64,000 nt of DNA from Prevotella sp. (lineage in GTDB: Bacteria > Bacteroidota > Bacteroidia > Bacteroidales > Bacteroidaceae). Location of the stretch: NCBI GenBank assembly GCA_017449495.1, contig JAFTFO010000010.1, positions 30,354 to 94,353 on the forward strand. Direction: 5' to 3'. The notes beneath the pieces are model-generated. The model did not search any database, had not been told where the DNA came from, and saw only the letters and a program-made list of their open reading frames with translations. Both the position numbers and the translations under genes were made by a program. The first letter of the stretch is position 1. Each line of letters begins with the position of its first letter. Shown here piece by piece: positions 4,191-60,090 of the stretch.

Positions 4191-4257
4191 AAAAATGTGC
4201 GTAAACCAGCGGAATCTGTTAATTTTTGGCAGATTCCGCTGGTTTACGCACATTTTT
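4191..4257. repeat. Perfect 28-bp inverted repeat overlapping an ATPase promoter
   Basis: Two arms, 4191-4218 and 4230-4257, are exact reverse complements and are separated by an 11-base AT-rich loop. The inner core of the right arm is CCGCTGGTTTACGCACA. The right arm ends three bases before the -7 box at 4261, so the palindrome covers the expected -33 position of the ATPase promoter. It could be an operator, a hairpin or the footprint of a mobile repeat. Confidence 0.8.
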
Positions 4258-6114: not shown

Positions 6115-8358
6115 TTACACTTTCCGCTTCACCCAGTAGAGGACGCCGACGTTGGTGTGTTTGCTCTGGAACTTGTACTCCGGACGGCTGAGGTAGGCAC
6201 CGATCTTCCGGAAGGTGCCCTCGTCCTCCCGATATCCCTTGAAGTGCTGCTTCAGCAAAGCGGAGAGATCTTTAAGTAACATCCACTCCCCCTCATCGCT
6301 TCCCTGTAAACCGCTGACAGGAGCCATTGTCCGTGGCTTCTGGATGACGGCCATGAGCATCTCGCCCAGACCGTTCAGGCGCTGGTACTGCAGGTTGTGC
6401 TCCATTAGCCGCCGCTCCTCCTCTTTCGTCAGCCAGTAACGCTCGCCCTGGCGGATCTCCTGCAGCAGCTGGGCGAAGACCTGGTCGTGCTGCACGGGCG
6501 TCTCGAAGTCGATGTCGCCGTCCACCAGACAGCAGACGAACCTTCGCGAGCCCGAGGGGTCGGTGAGCGGCGCCTGGTCGTTGGTGGTGCCGATGAACGA
6601 GGCGTAGCGGCGGTTCGACGTGTAGGCCTTGCCGTAGGGCGGACGGTACTTCAGGTCGGCCGTCGACACGAGATACTTCAGCACGATCTGCTGGCGCTGG
6701 GTGACGCGGTCGAACTCGTCGAGGTTGATCAACCCGAACGACGACAGGCCGAGGTTCAGATCCTGCTCGTTCTTGAAGTTGATGCGGTCGTTGTAGTAGT
6801 CCTGCAGGTCGCGGGGCAGCAGGATCCGGCAGAACGACGACTTGCCGCAGCCCTGCCTTCCTATTAATAAAGGTACGAGGGCGTTGCCCGTCAGCTGACC
6901 CTTGCCCAGCCACATCGCCACCATCGAGCGCATCCAGATATGGAACAGGTGCGTCCACTCCTCCCACTCCGTCGGCACCCTTTCTGCGAGGGCCGTCACG
7001 CGGTCCCGGCCGTCCCACCTCGGCAGATGCTCCAGATAGTCGTTCAGCGGGTCGTAGCGCTCGATGTCGTCCGAGTTCACGTAGCGCCGGATGTCCTTGT
7101 CCCAGCAGCGGATGCCCTGCTCGAGGGCCCGCATCGTGATGGAGTTGCGGGCCTCCTCGGTGAGGTCCTGGAACGAGAAGCCCACGCCCGTCTTCATGCG
7201 GTACTCGGCGACGCCCCGCATCACGTTCTTCCGCAGTTCATAGTTCTCGCTGAGGAAGATGCCGACCTTCATCGTCAGCAGCGTCTCGGGCGGTATGGTC
7301 TTCGTGCGCCGGATGCCCTTCCGCTGCATGTAACGCTCCACGTGGCTCTCACGGTAGGCGTTCTCGAACACCTTCTTCACCGTCTCCCGGTCGTCCCAGA
7401 AGTCGTGCTTCATCATCGCCTGGCGCTGGGCGACGGCCATGGGCAGCCCCGTCTGCATGCAGTAGACGGCCAGCCTCGACAGCGTGGCGTGGCGGCGCTC
7501 CTCGCGGTCGGCGATGCCCTCCGTGTCGTCGTAGGCCTTCGTCAGGTTGAACTCGAAGATCTGGTAGTTGCGGCGGTAGCTCTCGTAACTCACCTCGCTG
7601 GCCGCGAGCGTCGTCGAGGGCTGCCGGCGCAGCGACTCGGCGGGTTTCTCGGCCTTGGCATAGACAGGCGTCGCCAGCGGGTTGAAGACCATCTGCGGGT
7701 CGTGGCTCACGTAGCAGATACGGCTGGTCAGCGGCTCGAGCTTCTCGACGGTGACGCCCAACTGGCCGTTGTAGATGAGCCGTGCCCGCTCATAGAGGTT
7801 CTCGTGGAAGAGGGGGATGGATTCGTGGAGGGTGGAGGGTGGAGTGTGGAGGGAGATGTGTCTTGCGGCGGCATCTGCACTTGGAGTATTCTCATTCCAC
7901 ACTCCACCCTCCACACTCCACGAAGACTTTCCCCCCAACAGCTCCCCACGGCAGACGATCTTCACCGACTGCCCGTCGGCCCCGACGAAGGCCATCAGCG
8001 TCTGTGGCATCTCGCCGGCTCCGCGGCGCACGGCCTCGGCCTCCTCCAGGCTCGCCAGGTTGTTCACCTCGAGCAGCACCAAGCCCGTATAGCCTTTAGT
8101 GACGAGTTCGTGGTTGCGGTTCTCCTGTTCCAGGGCGAAGCAGAGGCGCGGCAGGTCCTTCGGCCAGTTCTCGTAGCCCTCGAGGGTGCCGTTGTTGCCG
8201 ACGGTGACGTACTGCATCGTGGGCAGTTCCCTGCGGAAGGTGTCCACGGCCTGCCCGTACTCCTCCGAGCGGATGAGGTCTGCCACTTCCTGCAGCGACA
8301 GCAGCCGCAGGGTCTCCTTGTTGCGATAGCTCTTAATGAGCGTGATTCTTGGTGCCAT
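6115..8358 (-). CDS. VirE_N/VapE-type primase-helicase-like protein
   Basis: Encodes 747 residues. The N-terminal third matches the BT4734/VirE_N type, a primase-like fold. The middle holds a VapE ATPase core with Walker A IGRQGCGKSS near residue 500 and LINLDEFDR as Walker B near 547, followed by FIGTTNDQAPLTDPSGSRRF. The C-terminus, after GEWMLLKDLSALLKQHF, looks like the DUF3874 tail. Such proteins are associated with phage-like or integrated elements and probably act in replication. ATG 8358 was chosen because the upstream in-frame TTG at 8406 overlaps the -7 box. A palindromic element at 7822-7924 is inserted in frame, adding a peptide containing SVEGGVWNEN and LHTPPSTLHE. The upstream DNA carries an iteron-like array. 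Confidence 0.85.
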   Translation of the reverse strand: MAPRITLIKSYRNKETLRLLSLQEVADLIRSEEYGQAVDTFRRELPTMQYVTVGNNGTLEGYENWPKDLPRLCFALEQENRNHELVTKGYTGLVLLEVNNLASLEEAEAVRRGAGEMPQTLMAFVGADGQSVKIVCRGELLGGKSSWSVEGGVWNENTPSADAAARHISLHTPPSTLHESIPLFHENLYERARLIYNGQLGVTVEKLEPLTSRICYVSHDPQMVFNPLATPVYAKAEKPAESLRRQPSTTLAASEVSYESYRRNYQIFEFNLTKAYDDTEGIADREERRHATLSRLAVYCMQTGLPMAVAQRQAMMKHDFWDDRETVKKVFENAYRESHVERYMQRKGIRRTKTIPPETLLTMKVGIFLSENYELRKNVMRGVAEYRMKTGVGFSFQDLTEEARNSITMRALEQGIRCWDKDIRRYVNSDDIERYDPLNDYLEHLPRWDGRDRVTALAERVPTEWEEWTHLFHIWMRSMVAMWLGKGQLTGNALVPLLIGRQGCGKSSFCRILLPRDLQDYYNDRINFKNEQDLNLGLSSFGLINLDEFDRVTQRQQIVLKYLVSTADLKYRPPYGKAYTSNRRYASFIGTTNDQAPLTDPSGSRRFVCCLVDGDIDFETPVQHDQVFAQLLQEIRQGERYWLTKEEERRLMEHNLQYQRLNGLGEMLMAVIQKPRTMAPVSGLQGSDEGEWMLLKDLSALLKQHFKGYREDEGTFRKIGAYLSRPEYKFQSKHTNVGVLYWVKRKV
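7822..7924. repeat. In-frame palindromic element, family A (GTGGAGTGTGG type)
   Basis: Arms 7822-7849 and 7897-7924 are reverse complements with one mismatch over 28 bases and are built of GTGGAG/TGTGGA units. The whole 103-base stretch lies inside the virE-type gene without breaking its frame. A related copy is in menF (49872-49976) and a half copy is in the MetH-activation gene (about 9368-9388). Confidence 0.8.
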
Positions 8359-23800: not shown

Positions 23801-24641
23801 TTCGTGCGAGATATGATCTCTGGCGGATTCCTCTGGCGCGGGTCGAACAGGAATGAAATCGTCTCGTCAAATTCTGCTATGGACTGAGGGAGATTTGGAT
23901 TGTCTCTTCTGGAGATAATATCCGGGAAATTCATAATTCCCGTCCATTTTTCCCTCGGCTGACTTCCCAAAAAGTAATCACGGCGCTCGTAGATGTTTTT
24001 TCGCCAGCTCTATTCCTTGGCATATCGTGATGACGGTCCTTGTTTATTAATATCTTTCTTTCAGCCGAGGCGTAATTGGCTGAGAGTCAGAGGATACTGC
24101 TGAAGGAAAACTCGAAGTCAGAATGGCAGAGGCAACCTACGACTAACCCAGACGCAGAATAGCTGATGTGCGACTAAGCGGTGGATAAAGCAAGACGAAA
24201 CATCAAGTAACGGATTGTTTGACCTTGGTCAAACAATTGACTGACGGCCGTCAAACGATCGTTTGACCAAGGTCAAACAATGACAACCTTGGCGGTAAAG
24301 GCCTTTCAGAAGGCTTTAAAATCAGGGAAAACGAATCGTTGAGGGCAAGACGGAATTCTGCATGAGTCGGGAGAAGCCTTGAGACCTTGAGGCTTCGGCT
24401 ATTGCTGCAGAGATGCGCTGACGAGTTTTTCCTTTCAGCTGAAAACGCTCAGTATAAGCAAGTTGCGCCTCGACTGAAAGGACAAGTCAACTATTGATGA
24501 TAGCATCTTGGCTCGAAAAAATCCAAATATATTTGGTATTTTGCTCACTTATTAGTAACTTTGACCTTCGGTCGAAGATAGGATGCATCTCGGAAATGAA
24601 AGAAAAATTGTCTTTTTCTTTGCATTTCGCTCGATTTTCAC
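23801..24641. other. Non-coding region with palindromes
   Basis: About 840 bases between the outer-membrane pseudogene and the metF promoter. The short minus-strand frame at 23788-23970 (60 residues) looks non-coding. The only structured part is the GTTTGACC-type palindrome cluster at 24214-24278, with CTTTCAGC/GCTGAAAG-like complementary bits at about 24055-24475. Nothing else was recognised. Confidence 0.5.
24214..24278. repeat. Cluster of three palindromes with GTTTGACC/GGTCAAAC arms
   Basis: 24214-24237 is a near-perfect palindrome (ATTGTTTGACC-TT-GGTCAAACAAT), 24242-24253 is the perfect TGACGGCCGTCA, and 24261-24278 is GTTTGACC-AA-GGTCAAAC. They share the TTTGAC/GTCAAA half-site and lie about 400 bases before metF. 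Confidence 0.75.
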
Positions 24642-41682: not shown

Positions 41683-42756
41683 TTAAACTAACAACTCAGC
41701 CTGCCTTCGGGCAGGCTTTCCTGTCTCTGTCAGGGGAATCTTGCTGACGTGGATGTAGGCTCTCGGACGCAGGTATTTCTGCAATACCGCCTCACAGACG
41801 GCCTTCGCTGATGCAGTGTCACCTTCCGTCAGCAGCACCACCGCCTCGCCAAACTTCTCGTCAGGCCGTTTTGTAATTAAATAAGGTTCGCGCAAGTGCG
41901 TGCGAAGCTGCCGTTCCACCTCTTCCGCCTGAATCTTCAAGCCACCAGAGCAGATGACATTGTCCTTCCTTCCCAGAATTTTGAAGGGGACATTGGCGAC
42001 ACAGGGGGACTGTCCCTCGTGTGCGGAACTTGCGGAGCACATCAGGGACTGTCCCCTCTGTGTCGCCAACTCCGCTATATCATTGGTGACGAGCGTTTCT
42101 GCACACACCTCTGGGGCATCAATGACGAGACAACCTTCATCATTCAGACTGACGCTGACAGAAGGGAACGGCGTGTACCAGTCGGTGGCCTCTGGCCCTG
42201 ACAGTCGTCTGAGAGCGATGTGTGAAAGGGTTTCCGTCATGCCGTAGGTACTCCACACATGGTTGGGAAACGTCTTCAACGTCTCTGCCAAGGCCTCGTC
42301 GATCGCGCCTCCACCAATAATCAAATGCTTAATCTGTTTCAGTCGTTCGCACTCCTCTGGCACCTGCAATGAATTATACACCTGCATCAGCACCATCGCC
42401 GCAAAGGTGACACAGGGGGACGGTTCTTTTGTTACATCGCTGGCTGATGTAACAAAAGAACCGTCCCCCTGTGTCACCGCCAACGGGTGTCCGCTGGGCT
42501 CTACGGAGATCAATCTTAACCCTCGCTCTATCGCCCTGACCACCATCATCTTGCCAGCGATATAGTCGAGCGACATACATAGCAGGGCCGTATCGTCTTT
42601 CTGAAGACCCAGGAAGTCATTCGTCCTACGGGCCGAGGCCAGCATCCGCCGTTTCTCCACGAGCATCGGCTTAGGCTCACCCGTAGAACCGCTCGTCTGC
42701 ACCCTCACAAAAGGACTTTCATCCTCCCACTCGGCCAAGAACTCCTCAAGATTCAC
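41683..42756 (-). CDS. menE: O-succinylbenzoate-CoA ligase with two in-frame palindromic inserts
   Basis: Activates o-succinylbenzoate with CoA, in menaquinone synthesis. The 357-residue AMP-binding enzyme has RVQTSGSTGEPKPM (P-loop), MVRAIERGLRLISVEPS, WSTYGMTETLSHIAL, GRKDNVICSGGLKIQAEEVE and KIPLTETGKPARR (catalytic Lys region). It is short for the family. Two palindromic elements lie inside it: 42406-42478 encodes VTQGDGSFVTSASDVTKEPS after PLA, and 41995-42067 encodes TQRGQSLMCSASSAHEGQS. Both keep the frame, so the protein is probably still made. It follows menC in the operon. Confidence 0.88.
   Translation of the reverse strand: MNLEEFLAEWEDESPFVRVQTSGSTGEPKPMLVEKRRMLASARRTNDFLGLQKDDTALLCMSLDYIAGKMMVVRAIERGLRLISVEPSGHPLAVTQGDGSFVTSASDVTKEPSPCVTFAAMVLMQVYNSLQVPEECERLKQIKHLIIGGGAIDEALAETLKTFPNHVWSTYGMTETLSHIALRRLSGPEATDWYTPFPSVSVSLNDEGCLVIDAPEVCAETLVTNDIAELATQRGQSLMCSASSAHEGQSPCVANVPFKILGRKDNVICSGGLKIQAEEVERQLRTHLREPYLITKRPDEKFGEAVVLLTEGDTASAKAVCEAVLQKYLRPRAYIHVSKIPLTETGKPARRQAELLV
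41995..42067. repeat. In-frame palindromic element in menE, family B copy 1
   Basis: Outer arms 41995-42010 and 42051-42067 are complementary with one bulged base (GGCGACACAG...). The inside carries GGGGGACTGTCCCT and its partner AGGGACTGTCCCC. About 58 bases match the menC copy closely. Confidence 0.85.
42406..42478. repeat. In-frame palindromic element in menE, family B copy 2 (perfect 33-bp arms)
   Basis: Arms 42406-42438 and 42446-42478 are exact reverse complements around a seven-base loop. The core GGGGGACGGTTCTTTTGT is a REP-like motif. The element encodes VTQGDGSFVTSASDVTKEPS in menE. Confidence 0.9.
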
Positions 42757-42774
42757 TTTTTCCTTTTTACTTTT

Positions 42775-43857
42775 TTACCTTTTTACCCACAGTTGATCTC
42801 CCCTTATCTCCAGCGGCATCGGGATATTATCTGTAAACAACTGTCCCGTGCCCAATCCCTGAGGCATACGGATATTGTCGCCATAGACATCCGACGCAAA
42901 TTGGGCAATGGCATTCAGGCCGATGTTACTCTCTAAAGCAGAGGTAATCCACGAGCCGATGCCCAAGTCGCGGGCTGTCTCTATCCATTCCCTACAGCCC
43001 TGCATGCCCCCATGCAACGAGGGTTTCAGGATGATATATCGTGGTTTGATCATCTGTAGCATGTGGCGCTTCATCTCCGGATCGTTCACACCTATCAACT
43101 CTTCGTCGAGGGCGATGGGCAGGGGTGACTCTCTGCAGAGCTCCGCCATATAGGCCCACTGCCCCTGACGGATAGGTTGCTCTATCGAATGGATGGCATA
43201 TTGGGAAAGCAGCTCCAGCTTATACAGCGCCTCGTCAAAAGGGAAGGCTCCGTTGGCATCGAGCCGCAACTCCACTTCATGATGGGAGAACCGTTCACGG
43301 ATGCGCTTGATGAGGTCGAGTTCCTGGTCGAAGTCGATGGCGCCGATCTTCAGCTTCACACAGCGGAAGCCCTTTTCAAGCTTTTCCTCCATGCGCTGCA
43401 ACATCTCCTCATAGCTGCCCATCCACACCAACCCGTTGATGGGGATGCCCACCTCGCCACGACTGAACATCGTATCGAACAGTCTGTTGCCATTCTGAAG
43501 ATTCAGCCACGCCGTCTCCAGTCCGAAGAGCATCGATGGATATGGCCGCAGAGCTTCAAACGAATCACTGGGGGACTGTCCCTCGTGTGCGAAGCCTGCG
43601 GAGCACATCAGGGACTGTCCCCTCTGTGATTCCTGCCTCCGGCAGAACTCCTCGCAAGCCTTTTCCAGCCGCTCACGATAGACATCATCTGGCAAAGCAT
43701 CACAACTCAAGTCGGGCAACGGGGCACACTCCCCGATGCCTTCCCGTCCGTCTTCCGTCAGATGCACCAGCCAGATCTTCCGCTCCGTATAAACACCACG
43801 AGAGGTTCCTGCCGGCTGTTTGAAATGGAGCACCCGCTCTTCTATCCGTCCCTCCAT
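42775..43857 (-). CDS. menC: O-succinylbenzoate synthase with in-frame palindromic insert
   Basis: Dehydrates SHCHC to o-succinylbenzoate. The 360-residue enolase-superfamily enzyme shows the two catalytic lysine regions (FRCVKLKIGAIDF) and metal ligands LRLDANGAF (Asp), IEQPIRQGQ (Glu) and IALDEELIG (Asp/Glu). A palindromic element (43562-43632) adds SQRGQSLMCSAGFAHEGQS near residue 80, between the capping and barrel domains. The catalytic segments look intact. ATG 43857 (MEGRIEER) is chosen because the frame from 43902 would overlap the upstream lipoprotein gene. Confidence 0.88.
   Translation of the reverse strand: MEGRIEERVLHFKQPAGTSRGVYTERKIWLVHLTEDGREGIGECAPLPDLSCDALPDDVYRERLEKACEEFCRRQESQRGQSLMCSAGFAHEGQSPSDSFEALRPYPSMLFGLETAWLNLQNGNRLFDTMFSRGEVGIPINGLVWMGSYEEMLQRMEEKLEKGFRCVKLKIGAIDFDQELDLIKRIRERFSHHEVELRLDANGAFPFDEALYKLELLSQYAIHSIEQPIRQGQWAYMAELCRESPLPIALDEELIGVNDPEMKRHMLQMIKPRYIILKPSLHGGMQGCREWIETARDLGIGSWITSALESNIGLNAIAQFASDVYGDNIRMPQGLGTGQLFTDNIPMPLEIRGDQLWVKR
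43562..43632. repeat. In-frame palindromic element in menC, family B copy 3
   Basis: Outer arms 43562-43576 and 43617-43632 (GAATCAC..GGGGGAC / GTCCCC..GTGATTC) are nearly complementary. The interior matches menE copy 1 over about 58 bases, but the outermost arm sequences differ between the two copies. Confidence 0.85.
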
Positions 43858-43864
43858 CCGCCTT

Positions 43865-44473
43865 CTACAACTTGGTATCCGAAATGAAGATGAGGGGCAC
43901 ATCGGTCGTCATGTAGGTTGACTGCTTCTCGTCAATATACAGGGCGCCAATAATAAGCTGCATGCCCAGTTCACGGGAACTGGCATTGTAGGTACCGTAC
44001 GAATAGGTATTGTTCACATAGAAGAGCACCTGCACCTTGTGGTCGCTGCCTGAATAGTTCAGGTTATAGGTGAGTGTCTGGGGATTGATCAGAAACTCTA
44101 TGGGCGACATGTTAATGAAGCCGATACGACAGTTGAGCGGCTGGTCTGGAGCAGCCTCGAGCGCTTCTTTCAATGCCGAATTGGAGATACACCCCGCCAG
44201 CGCCTTGCTGGGGAACTTGGGCACCGTCATCACAGAGTCGCTCGGGATGTACCAGTCGATGTCGACAGAGTCTCTTTCACGGGAAGCGTCGTAGAAGTAG
44301 AGTTTACCCGTATAGTCGCCCCCGACGGCGGCAAAGCACAGGGCCTTCTCCGAGGCAGAGAGTCCCTTCGACTGGTTATTGTTGTTGTCATCATCGTCGC
44401 TCAGACATGAGACAACGGTCAGGGCCCCTGCGAGGCAGCAAGCCCATGAAAGGAATTTAAGTGATTTCATCAT
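43865..44473 (-). CDS. Lipoprotein inside the men operon, DUF4840-like
   Basis: Encodes 202 residues with a lipoprotein signal (LKFLSWACCLAGALTVVSC, lipobox VVSC), then an Asp/Asn-rich linker (DDDDNNNN) and beta-rich sequence with LCFAAVGGDYTGKLYFYD, GFINMSPIEFLINPQTLTYN and a final segment VPLIFISDTKL. I associate the layout with DUF4840, whose function is unknown. It sits between menB and menC with gaps of 24 and seven bases, so it is cotranscribed although menaquinone synthesis is cytoplasmic. The role is unclear. Confidence 0.65.
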   Translation of the reverse strand: MMKSLKFLSWACCLAGALTVVSCLSDDDDNNNNQSKGLSASEKALCFAAVGGDYTGKLYFYDASRERDSVDIDWYIPSDSVMTVPKFPSKALAGCISNSALKEALEAAPDQPLNCRIGFINMSPIEFLINPQTLTYNLNYSGSDHKVQVLFYVNNTYSYGTYNASSRELGMQLIIGALYIDEKQSTYMTTDVPLIFISDTKL

Positions 44474-59774: not shown

Positions 59775-59888
59775 CTTTTATTATTTCAGGCGAGTACTGC
59801 TCCAGCTTAATTCTAATTAGATTACTTTCCTTGACCAAAGCCGAGGAAGAAATTGTTCTACTGGCCATACCTCTATTCCATTCAGCAT

Positions 59889-59915
59889 GTAACAGAAGAA
59901 CCGTCCCTCTGTTAC
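59889..59915. repeat. REP-like palindrome, family B-related
   Basis: GTAACAG (59889-59895) pairs with CTGTTAC (59909-59915) around AAGAACCGTCCCT, which is the same core as the element in menE at 42406-42478. Confidence 0.65.
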
Positions 59916-59925
59916 CTCTGTTATT

Positions 59926-60090
59926 TTTGACAGTTTGACAGTTGACAGTTTATTAGGGGGCGATATCTGGTCGAAGATGAGAAGGGGGAGGAATTATTAA
60001 ATATATATTTAATATTATATATAATATACCCCTTCTCATCTTCATCCAGATATCGGCCCCTAAAAAACTGTCAACTGTCAAACTGTCAAA
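59926..60090. repeat. 165-bp imperfect inverted repeat, 62-bp arms
   Basis: Arms 59926-59987 and 60029-60090 match as reverse complements at 58 of 62 positions. Each arm carries GACAGTT repeats and a GATATCTGG block. The 41-base centre is extremely AT-rich. It lies between the DUF4143 ATPase and the C10-tract gene, about 60 bases before that gene's -7 box. May be an incomplete mobile element or a large hairpin. Confidence 0.85.

Follow-up and report, generated by a model that had tools for sequence, protein, structure and literature searches.

How palindromic repeats of the repetitive extragenic palindromic (REP) type and of the Rickettsia palindromic element (RPE) type enter genes, and how they keep perfect arms, is an open question. 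We studied it in menE and menC of a 64,000-nucleotide (nt) stretch of Prevotella DNA (hereafter the window), which is part of contig C18 of G000, a 2.24-Mb, 68%-complete, Prevotella-type metagenome-assembled genome (MAG) in 47 contigs. Two loops of menE and one of menC each contain an in-frame palindromic insert. The explanation we regard as probable is that these are REP dyads of the kind associated with REP-associated tyrosine transposases (RAYTs), tolerated in permissive protein loops, where they are extended and homogenised by hairpin-templated template switching. At one of the sites, an inverted copy of the flank points to DNA-copying slips at hairpins as a route of insert growth and change.

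A first-pass annotation of this DNA had described the three palindromes, and their coordinates, arms and frames (Table 1) proved accurate, including the perfect 33-bp arms in menE loop 1, which enclose a 7-nt spacer. It had also called the menC element nearly identical to the menE loop 2 element. The interiors of these two are indeed almost the same, and their outer arms differ (GGCGACACAG.. vs GAATCACTG..) yet are each self-complementary, again as described. The statement that the inner cores match holds for this pair; the loop 1 palindrome belongs to another family, with only GGGAC and the general plan in common. When folded as DNA with about 10 nt of flank per side, the three elements gave z = -9.3, -12.5 and -5.0 against 200 dinucleotide shuffles each, and no shuffle was as stable as the real fold (0/200 in each case). 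Random inverted repeats were rejected on this basis. The menE and menC reading frames are open across all inserts and their domains are still recognised (2-succinylbenzoate-CoA ligases are among the PDB matches of the menE product), which led us to reject gene inactivation by these copies. Splicing or ribosome bypass was judged unlikely because either would render keeping the frame needless.

The origin of the outer arms could be followed most closely in menE loop 2. Two relatives, L286 and L287, have no insert there and read GAG TTG GCG ACA AAT AAT CAN TCC TTY, whilst the window reads GAG TTG GCG ACA, then 66 inserted nt, then AAT GTC CCC TTC. The last seven inserted nt, TGTCGCC, are the reverse complement of the retained GGCGACA. 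The aligned codons show the site before and after flanking DNA was copied into the opposite arm. Insert-free species number two here, not three, because L286 and L064 (G018) were counted as the same record; L292 and L050 (G031) were likewise taken as one. The first-pass suggestion that flanking DNA had been copied into the opposite arm is thus borne out for this element, with its empty site in two relatives, and not for the other two. In menC, the insert-free relative L287 reads GAATTAGATAATGATTCG, with GAAT..GATTC natively, and the GAATCA ends of the window's element recur in other family B copies of G000, so that a site resembling the element's ends suffices. In menE loop 1, some relatives (L305 and L291) resemble the left flank and another (L051) the right. 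Flank copying as the source of all outer arms was rejected, given these shared GAATCA ends and the mostly element-like outer bases of family A. Relatives did not resolve the native flank of the inserts in rsmF, obg, pnuC, the PAD_porph gene, sufS, tilS, prmC, the lpd-type gene, or the U32, fkp, birA, mntP, DUF3109, GSCFA and THUMP-like genes.

Table 1. Genes, inserted elements and flank copy in the window (positions of the window; strand "." where none applies).
Feature	Position	Strand	Basis
menE (2-succinylbenzoate-CoA ligase like, AMP-binding)	41683..42756	-	Open reading frame; Pfam AMP-binding E 7.5e-16; two inserts
menC (MenC_N + enolase C-terminal-like)	42775..43902	-	Open reading frame; Pfam MenC_N and MR_MLE_C; one insert
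Family B dyad, menE loop 2, two inverted GGGGACTGTCCC units	41995..42067	.	Repeat analysis, DNA fold
66-nt insert relative to the empty site of L286 (= L064/G018) and L287	41995..42060	.	Codon comparison
TGTCGCC (menE sense), inverted copy of native flank	41995..42001	-	Absent in both insert-free relatives
GGCGACA (menE sense), native flank copied	42061..42067	-	GAGTTGGCGACA identical in insert-free L286 and L287
Family A dyad, menE loop 1, perfect 33-bp arms, 7-nt spacer	42406..42478	.	Inverted-repeat search, DNA fold
Family B dyad in menC, two inverted GGGGACTGTCCC units; same place filled in L285	43562..43632	.	
Single family A unit between listed open reading frames	59888..59915	.	

The three palindromes fall into two families of REP-like elements that share a GGGAC core, A (GGGACGGTTCTTTTGTTACATC) and B (GGGACTGTCCC), and both recur in G000. 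Family A is laid out as ACAG(A/G)GGGACGGTTCTTTTGTTACATC, a spacer and the reverse complement, and family B as a pair of inverted GGGGACTGTCCC units. A genome-wide search for the core, one of the checks suggested at first pass, confirmed the recurrence: GGGGACTGTCCC has 16 matches in G000 and its reversed control none. The shorter GGGACRGTYCYYTTGT, which catches both families at up to two mismatches, has 44 matches against 5 for its control; five two-mismatch matches (C21, C26, C28:72255, C34:28007 and C35) were left out. We fetched 46 element loci from G000 and displayed 30. Of the other 16, 15 were second hits on the same elements, and the last (L031), a single unit close to the end of its contig, was viewed separately.

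Among the 30 displayed loci, 23 elements run in frame through open reading frames (ORFs) of more than 150 aa. B dyads account for 10 of them, A dyads for 9 and single B units for 4. All 19 displayed dyads lie in frame within ORFs and none lies outside one. The remaining seven loci are single units or poor matches without such an ORF, and in two of them (L041, L043) an ORF terminates inside the unit. The 23 elements occupy 21 ORFs, 19 of them besides menE and menC, and Pfam recognises 19 of the 21 (all except L004 and L009). Among the hosts are Obg, RNase HII, RsmF (two inserts), PrmC (PrmC_N/methyltransferase), a class-V aminotransferase, a PP-loop protein, a nicotinamide mononucleotide transporter, a pyridine nucleotide-disulphide oxidoreductase, GH97, a pseudouridine synthase and a fucose-pyrophosphorylase/kinase. 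The names SufS, TilS, ObgE, FKP, BirA, MntP and lipoamide-dehydrogenase-like were assigned by reading Pfam families and sequences. The first-pass view of REP- or RPE-like elements residing in frame in a Bacteroidota genome is therefore supported.

Of 119 genomes searched with family A as a 22-mer (up to two mismatches), 7 contain it, and all 7 belong to the same genus. A dyads are present in G031, G018 and G051 as well as in G000. Ten A dyads were counted in G031, leaving out L227 and the variants L229/L230; seven are in Pfam-recognised ORFs, two supply a gene's stop codon (L109) and one is in no long ORF. All four A dyads of G018 are in ORFs, one of which (L231) has no Pfam match. Of three single units fetched from G040, two fall within ORFs (293 and 339 aa). 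One and the same prmC loop carries a REP unit in four genomes (G040 L407, G018 L171, G031 L174 and G000 L010), B-type in three and A-type in one.

We then compared the menE and menC loops across relatives. The menE relatives, found by name, are mostly Prevotella/Prevotellaceae MAGs, many from ruminants; RUG-type MAG names we take to denote rumen origin. The best match is L285, a sheep abomasum MAG (79%). When MenE and MenC were aligned with relatives, as the first-pass annotation had proposed, most of these relatives proved to lack the extra peptides. With 80 fetched relatives and the window (81 sequences) and a hairpin score of at least 12, 19 of the 20 menE hairpins fall in the two loops, which make up 9% of the sequence (19 in 7,431 nt, 1 in the other 74,310 nt). 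Codon-shuffled loops gave a mean of 0.15 hairpins and a maximum of 1 over 20 shuffles. Loop 1 has hairpins in 12 of the 81 sequences and loop 2 in 7.

Other species have different palindromes in these menE loops, in some cases built from native codons alone, a result that goes beyond the first-pass annotation. A dyads fill both loops of L285, and loop 1 contains B-type elements in L289, L297 and L304; another family occurs in L296, a GGGACTGG type in G031/L292 and CCCTCCC types in L351 and L357. Loop 1 also tolerates other in-frame fillers, since it is filled by tandem repeats (STFHLPP..) in L314, L315 and L323. In loop 2 of L289 and L307, inverted copies of the conserved ILGRK codons form 16 and 15 pairs with no REP core; the two are alike and may be one event. 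Loop 1 of L332 has an inverted copy of conserved EPSG codons (12 pairs, no REP core), and loop 1 of L312 (FAA codons) is a weaker case. Loop 2 of L294 and L308 carries CTA with TAG in one and TTA with TAA in the other on opposite arms. An arm reaches conserved codons in 11 of the 19 loop palindromes. When flanks were swapped between orthologues, own pairs averaged 3.9 and swapped pairs 1.2, with single-case p values from 0.012 to 1.0. Remnants, either single arms or mini-hairpins, were found in L288, L299, L255 and L261.

The two arms of a copy also change together. Over the outer six positions, family A arms of the same copy match at 4.41 positions compared with 3.27 when cross-paired (reached in 0/20,000 permutations), and the uninterrupted run is 3.64 compared with 1.15. 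These statistics use 22 of 25 copies, three having no anchor ACA, with L115 set aside; some of the 22 are orthologous (L014/L178) and so not independent. A pattern search for B dyads caught three, which were left out of the statistics. At one site in the pseudouridine synthase gene, the spacers of G000 L039 (ACATCGCCTGGTGT) and G018 L191 (ACACCAGGCGATGT) are exact reverse complements, and the arms (AGAGGGAC/GTCCCTCT vs AGGGGGAC/GTCCCCCT) have changed on both sides. Homogenised arms together with an inverted spacer at the same site, the signature by which we recognise template switching, were found in this one pair. In the rsmF insert, by contrast, G000 and G018 agree in both the sequence and the orientation of the spacer.

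A search for RAYT genes, also proposed at first pass, found RAYT-type genes in G000 and its relatives. In G031 (L109, C38), the end of a RAYT-like gene falls within a family A dyad; A dyads at 740-840 and 1730-1810 of this locus give TAA stops to the RAYT gene and a second gene. The dyad overlaps the 3' end of the RAYT-like gene, and its 5' side lies beyond the contig. The REP-associated tyrosine transposase model NF047646 of NCBIfam matches the G031 protein with E 1.5e-20 and 73.5 bits, below its curated cut-off of 80, and matches all seven RAYT-like proteins scanned (E 3.2e-15 to 1.5e-20), each under the 80-bit cut-off. G000 has two Y1_Tnp genes, each beside units of other GGGAC families, and several further RAYT genes in the genus are accompanied by GGGGACAGGT-type units of their own. 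The G031 and G000 proteins contain NHVH/NHLH, FQ and YIHQNP, a mix of the subclass 2.1 and 2.6 motifs listed in PMC6006769.

We propose the following course of events. REP-like dyads, in which two hairpin units with a GGGAC core stand in inverse orientation, would enter loops in frame. They are of the type associated with Y1 tyrosine transposases in Bacteroidota, either RAYTs or the transposases linked to terminal inverted repeats (TIRs; TIRYTs). RAYT proteins presumably mobilise them. The dyads would survive in genes because the loops are length-tolerant, the frame is kept and stops are absent, and would therefore be translated, as some 20-30 extra residues. These peptides are probably part of the mature enzymes, and the menE and menC insert loops are likely surface loops. 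Once a hairpin exists, and sometimes without any element, DNA synthesis may switch template on the folded strand. Such switching could homogenise both arms and invert the spacer, lengthen the palindrome by copying neighbouring native DNA into the opposite arm, and make new palindromes from native codons alone. For menE loop 2, one possible path is that the nascent strand switched to the menC element, which is almost identical, and copied it, then folded onto itself, used 7 nt of its own flank as template and went back at AA. The flank copy would then have been written by template switching and not by a transposase. A bolder extension, which we put forward tentatively and consider less probable than not, is that certain protein loops of rumen Prevotella serve as palindrome nurseries, in which REP and native codons are made perfect by hairpin-templated synthesis. 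Dyads might then spread in genes largely by replication, moving from copy to copy (for example from menC to menE at a distance of 1.5 kb) and gaining length through inverted flank copies, with a transposase rarely needed.

Other accounts of the same data were weighed. The inverted flank copy might be a part of RAYT transposition itself, if joining of the element end to the target lets the hairpin 3' end prime synthesis on the newly attached flank and the product is then sealed to the other side. Each insertion would carry a short inverted target duplication. The exact abutment of copy and element in menE loop 2 agrees with this, as do two further menE elements of G031, which end in arms overlapping conserved codons (L292: GCTTCGCA/TGCGAAGC and TGGCAC/GTGCCA; swap-test p 0.11 and 0.38). 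We nevertheless think it unlikely, as the native-codon palindromes without a REP core (L289, L307 and L332) need an element-independent process and the outer bases of most family A copies are element-like. Microhomology offers another account, in which elements insert where the target resembles their ends, and native bases make up part of the outer arm on either side without any copying. It suits menC, where the insert-free L287 sequence would allow GAAT and GATTC both to be native and where GAATCA ends recur in other B copies. In menE loop 2 the evidence is against it, since the two relatives that lack the insert show GAGTTGGCGACAAATAAT and no TGTCGCC on the other side, and we hold it to be improbable overall.

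The palindromes might also be retained as useful, through a hairpin in transcripts or peptides in the enzymes. Different species repeatedly fill the same loops, and the menC inserts of the window and L285 are conserved to an unusual degree. Against usefulness, species differ in the type, length and sequence of the filling, loops are short in most of the relatives aligned, and the same elements turn up in many unrelated genes; we give this account little weight. Artefacts in the assembly of short-read MAGs are hardly credible, even though the window and most relatives are MAGs and, in L307, the stretch preceding the menC element does not belong to menC and is located at the end of a contig. In-frame, stop-free inserts occur at homologous sites of separately assembled genomes; the menC insert is common to the window and L285, and the rsmF insert to G000 and G018.

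Several observations weigh against the reading of tolerated dyads reshaped by template switching. Elements were scored as genic when an ORF runs through them, and gene-breaking copies would thus escape the count. In G055, related single B-type units (L395-L405) lie outside ORFs of more than 120 aa in 11 of 11 fetched copies, and in-frame residence is therefore not general for these cores. No transposase gene cognate to family B was found, G000 being incomplete. A resolved flank copy is present at one of the three window elements, and for that loop 2 case the flank-swap test gives p = 0.21; no arm reaches conserved codons in 8 of the 19 loop palindromes. Clustering is weaker in menC, with four hairpins in the loop (3,087 nt) and four elsewhere (81,537 nt), three of the latter at nt 312-477; here one of 80 sequences (<250 aa) was omitted, L307 was counted as a loop hairpin in spite of the doubtful contig end, and the menC element of the window stays under the score of 12. 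The outer bases of family A are restricted, position 4 outward being T in 22/22 left and 21/22 right arms and position 3 being G in 17/22 and 18/22, respectively. The arm match is for this reason mostly homogenisation of element ends and not host DNA. The spacer inversion of L039/L191 could stem from two independent insertions in opposite orientation. Finally, the window and L285 share 92% identity over the menC insert, compared with 61% at third codon positions of the gene. Neutral decay of an old insert does not explain this; conversion between copies, parallel insertion and selection are candidate explanations.

Related systems have several of these features. PMC3733652 describes REPs in ORFs, REP-supplied stop codons, RPEs and TIR families with GGGGWSAS, and PMC6006769 places most TIRYTs in HuH subclass 2.1 and describes a Bacteroidetes subclass 2.6 with atypical structures. 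The TIRtron/TIRYT systems and RAYT-associated REPs in these papers likewise have palindromic repeats in dimers, a GGGG-type core and association with a Y1 transposase, in Bacteroidetes too; unlike them, every examined G000 dyad is in frame inside an ORF and the outer arm can hold copied host DNA. The GGGGWSAS consensus, as it appears there, is matched by the RAYT-flanking GGGGACAG, whilst A (GGGGACGG) and B (GGGGACTG) are one base off. The elements resemble REPs and their hairpin-forming doublets (REPINs) in forming a hairpin dyad of two inverted units with several copies per genome (19 dyads displayed in G000), and differ in that inspection of the listed copies revealed no terminal GTAG/CGTC tag (single units were not folded alone). 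RPEs are also palindromes inserted in frame in unrelated protein genes; the present elements are from another phylum, have no CGTC tag by inspection (the tag as given in PMC3733652) and, in family A, are linked to a RAYT-like gene.

Template switching between inverted repeats leads to arm homogenisation and spacer inversion in the account given in the abstract of PMC8604942. Together with PMC8794818, it covers quasipalindrome mutation with inverted copies of nearby sequence, as seen here, but here on mobile REP-like inserts within bacterial protein loops. The palindromes of Nematomorpha mitochondria (PMC6649704) likewise lie within protein genes as long, perfect inverted repeats, but their two arms both code for conserved regions of the protein, whereas most of those described here are loop inserts of mobile origin. 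Among the matches listed from the open-licence PMC literature, no title or abstract start described in-frame palindromes in Bacteroidetes/Prevotella or template switching at REPs. Because this locus, in ordinary genes of a common gut genus, combines alleles with and without an insert, a site with different elements, remnants, a spacer inversion and a resolved flank copy, natural variation can be used to read how insertion and correction proceed, and these steps can be tested. The same process would provide a route for new peptide loops to enter conserved enzymes.

Further inverted repeats were observed in the window. Directly after the single family A unit lies a long imperfect one (59926-60090) with 79-nt arms that are 85% complementary and rich in GACAGTTTGACAGTT; similar AACTGTC repeats may encode loop peptides (e.g. 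NCQLSTVNSQ) in relatives. Other strong inverted repeats occur at 4191-4257, 24214-24281 and 7812-7934 (28-bp perfect arms; a TTTGACC palindrome; GTGGAGGG repeats).

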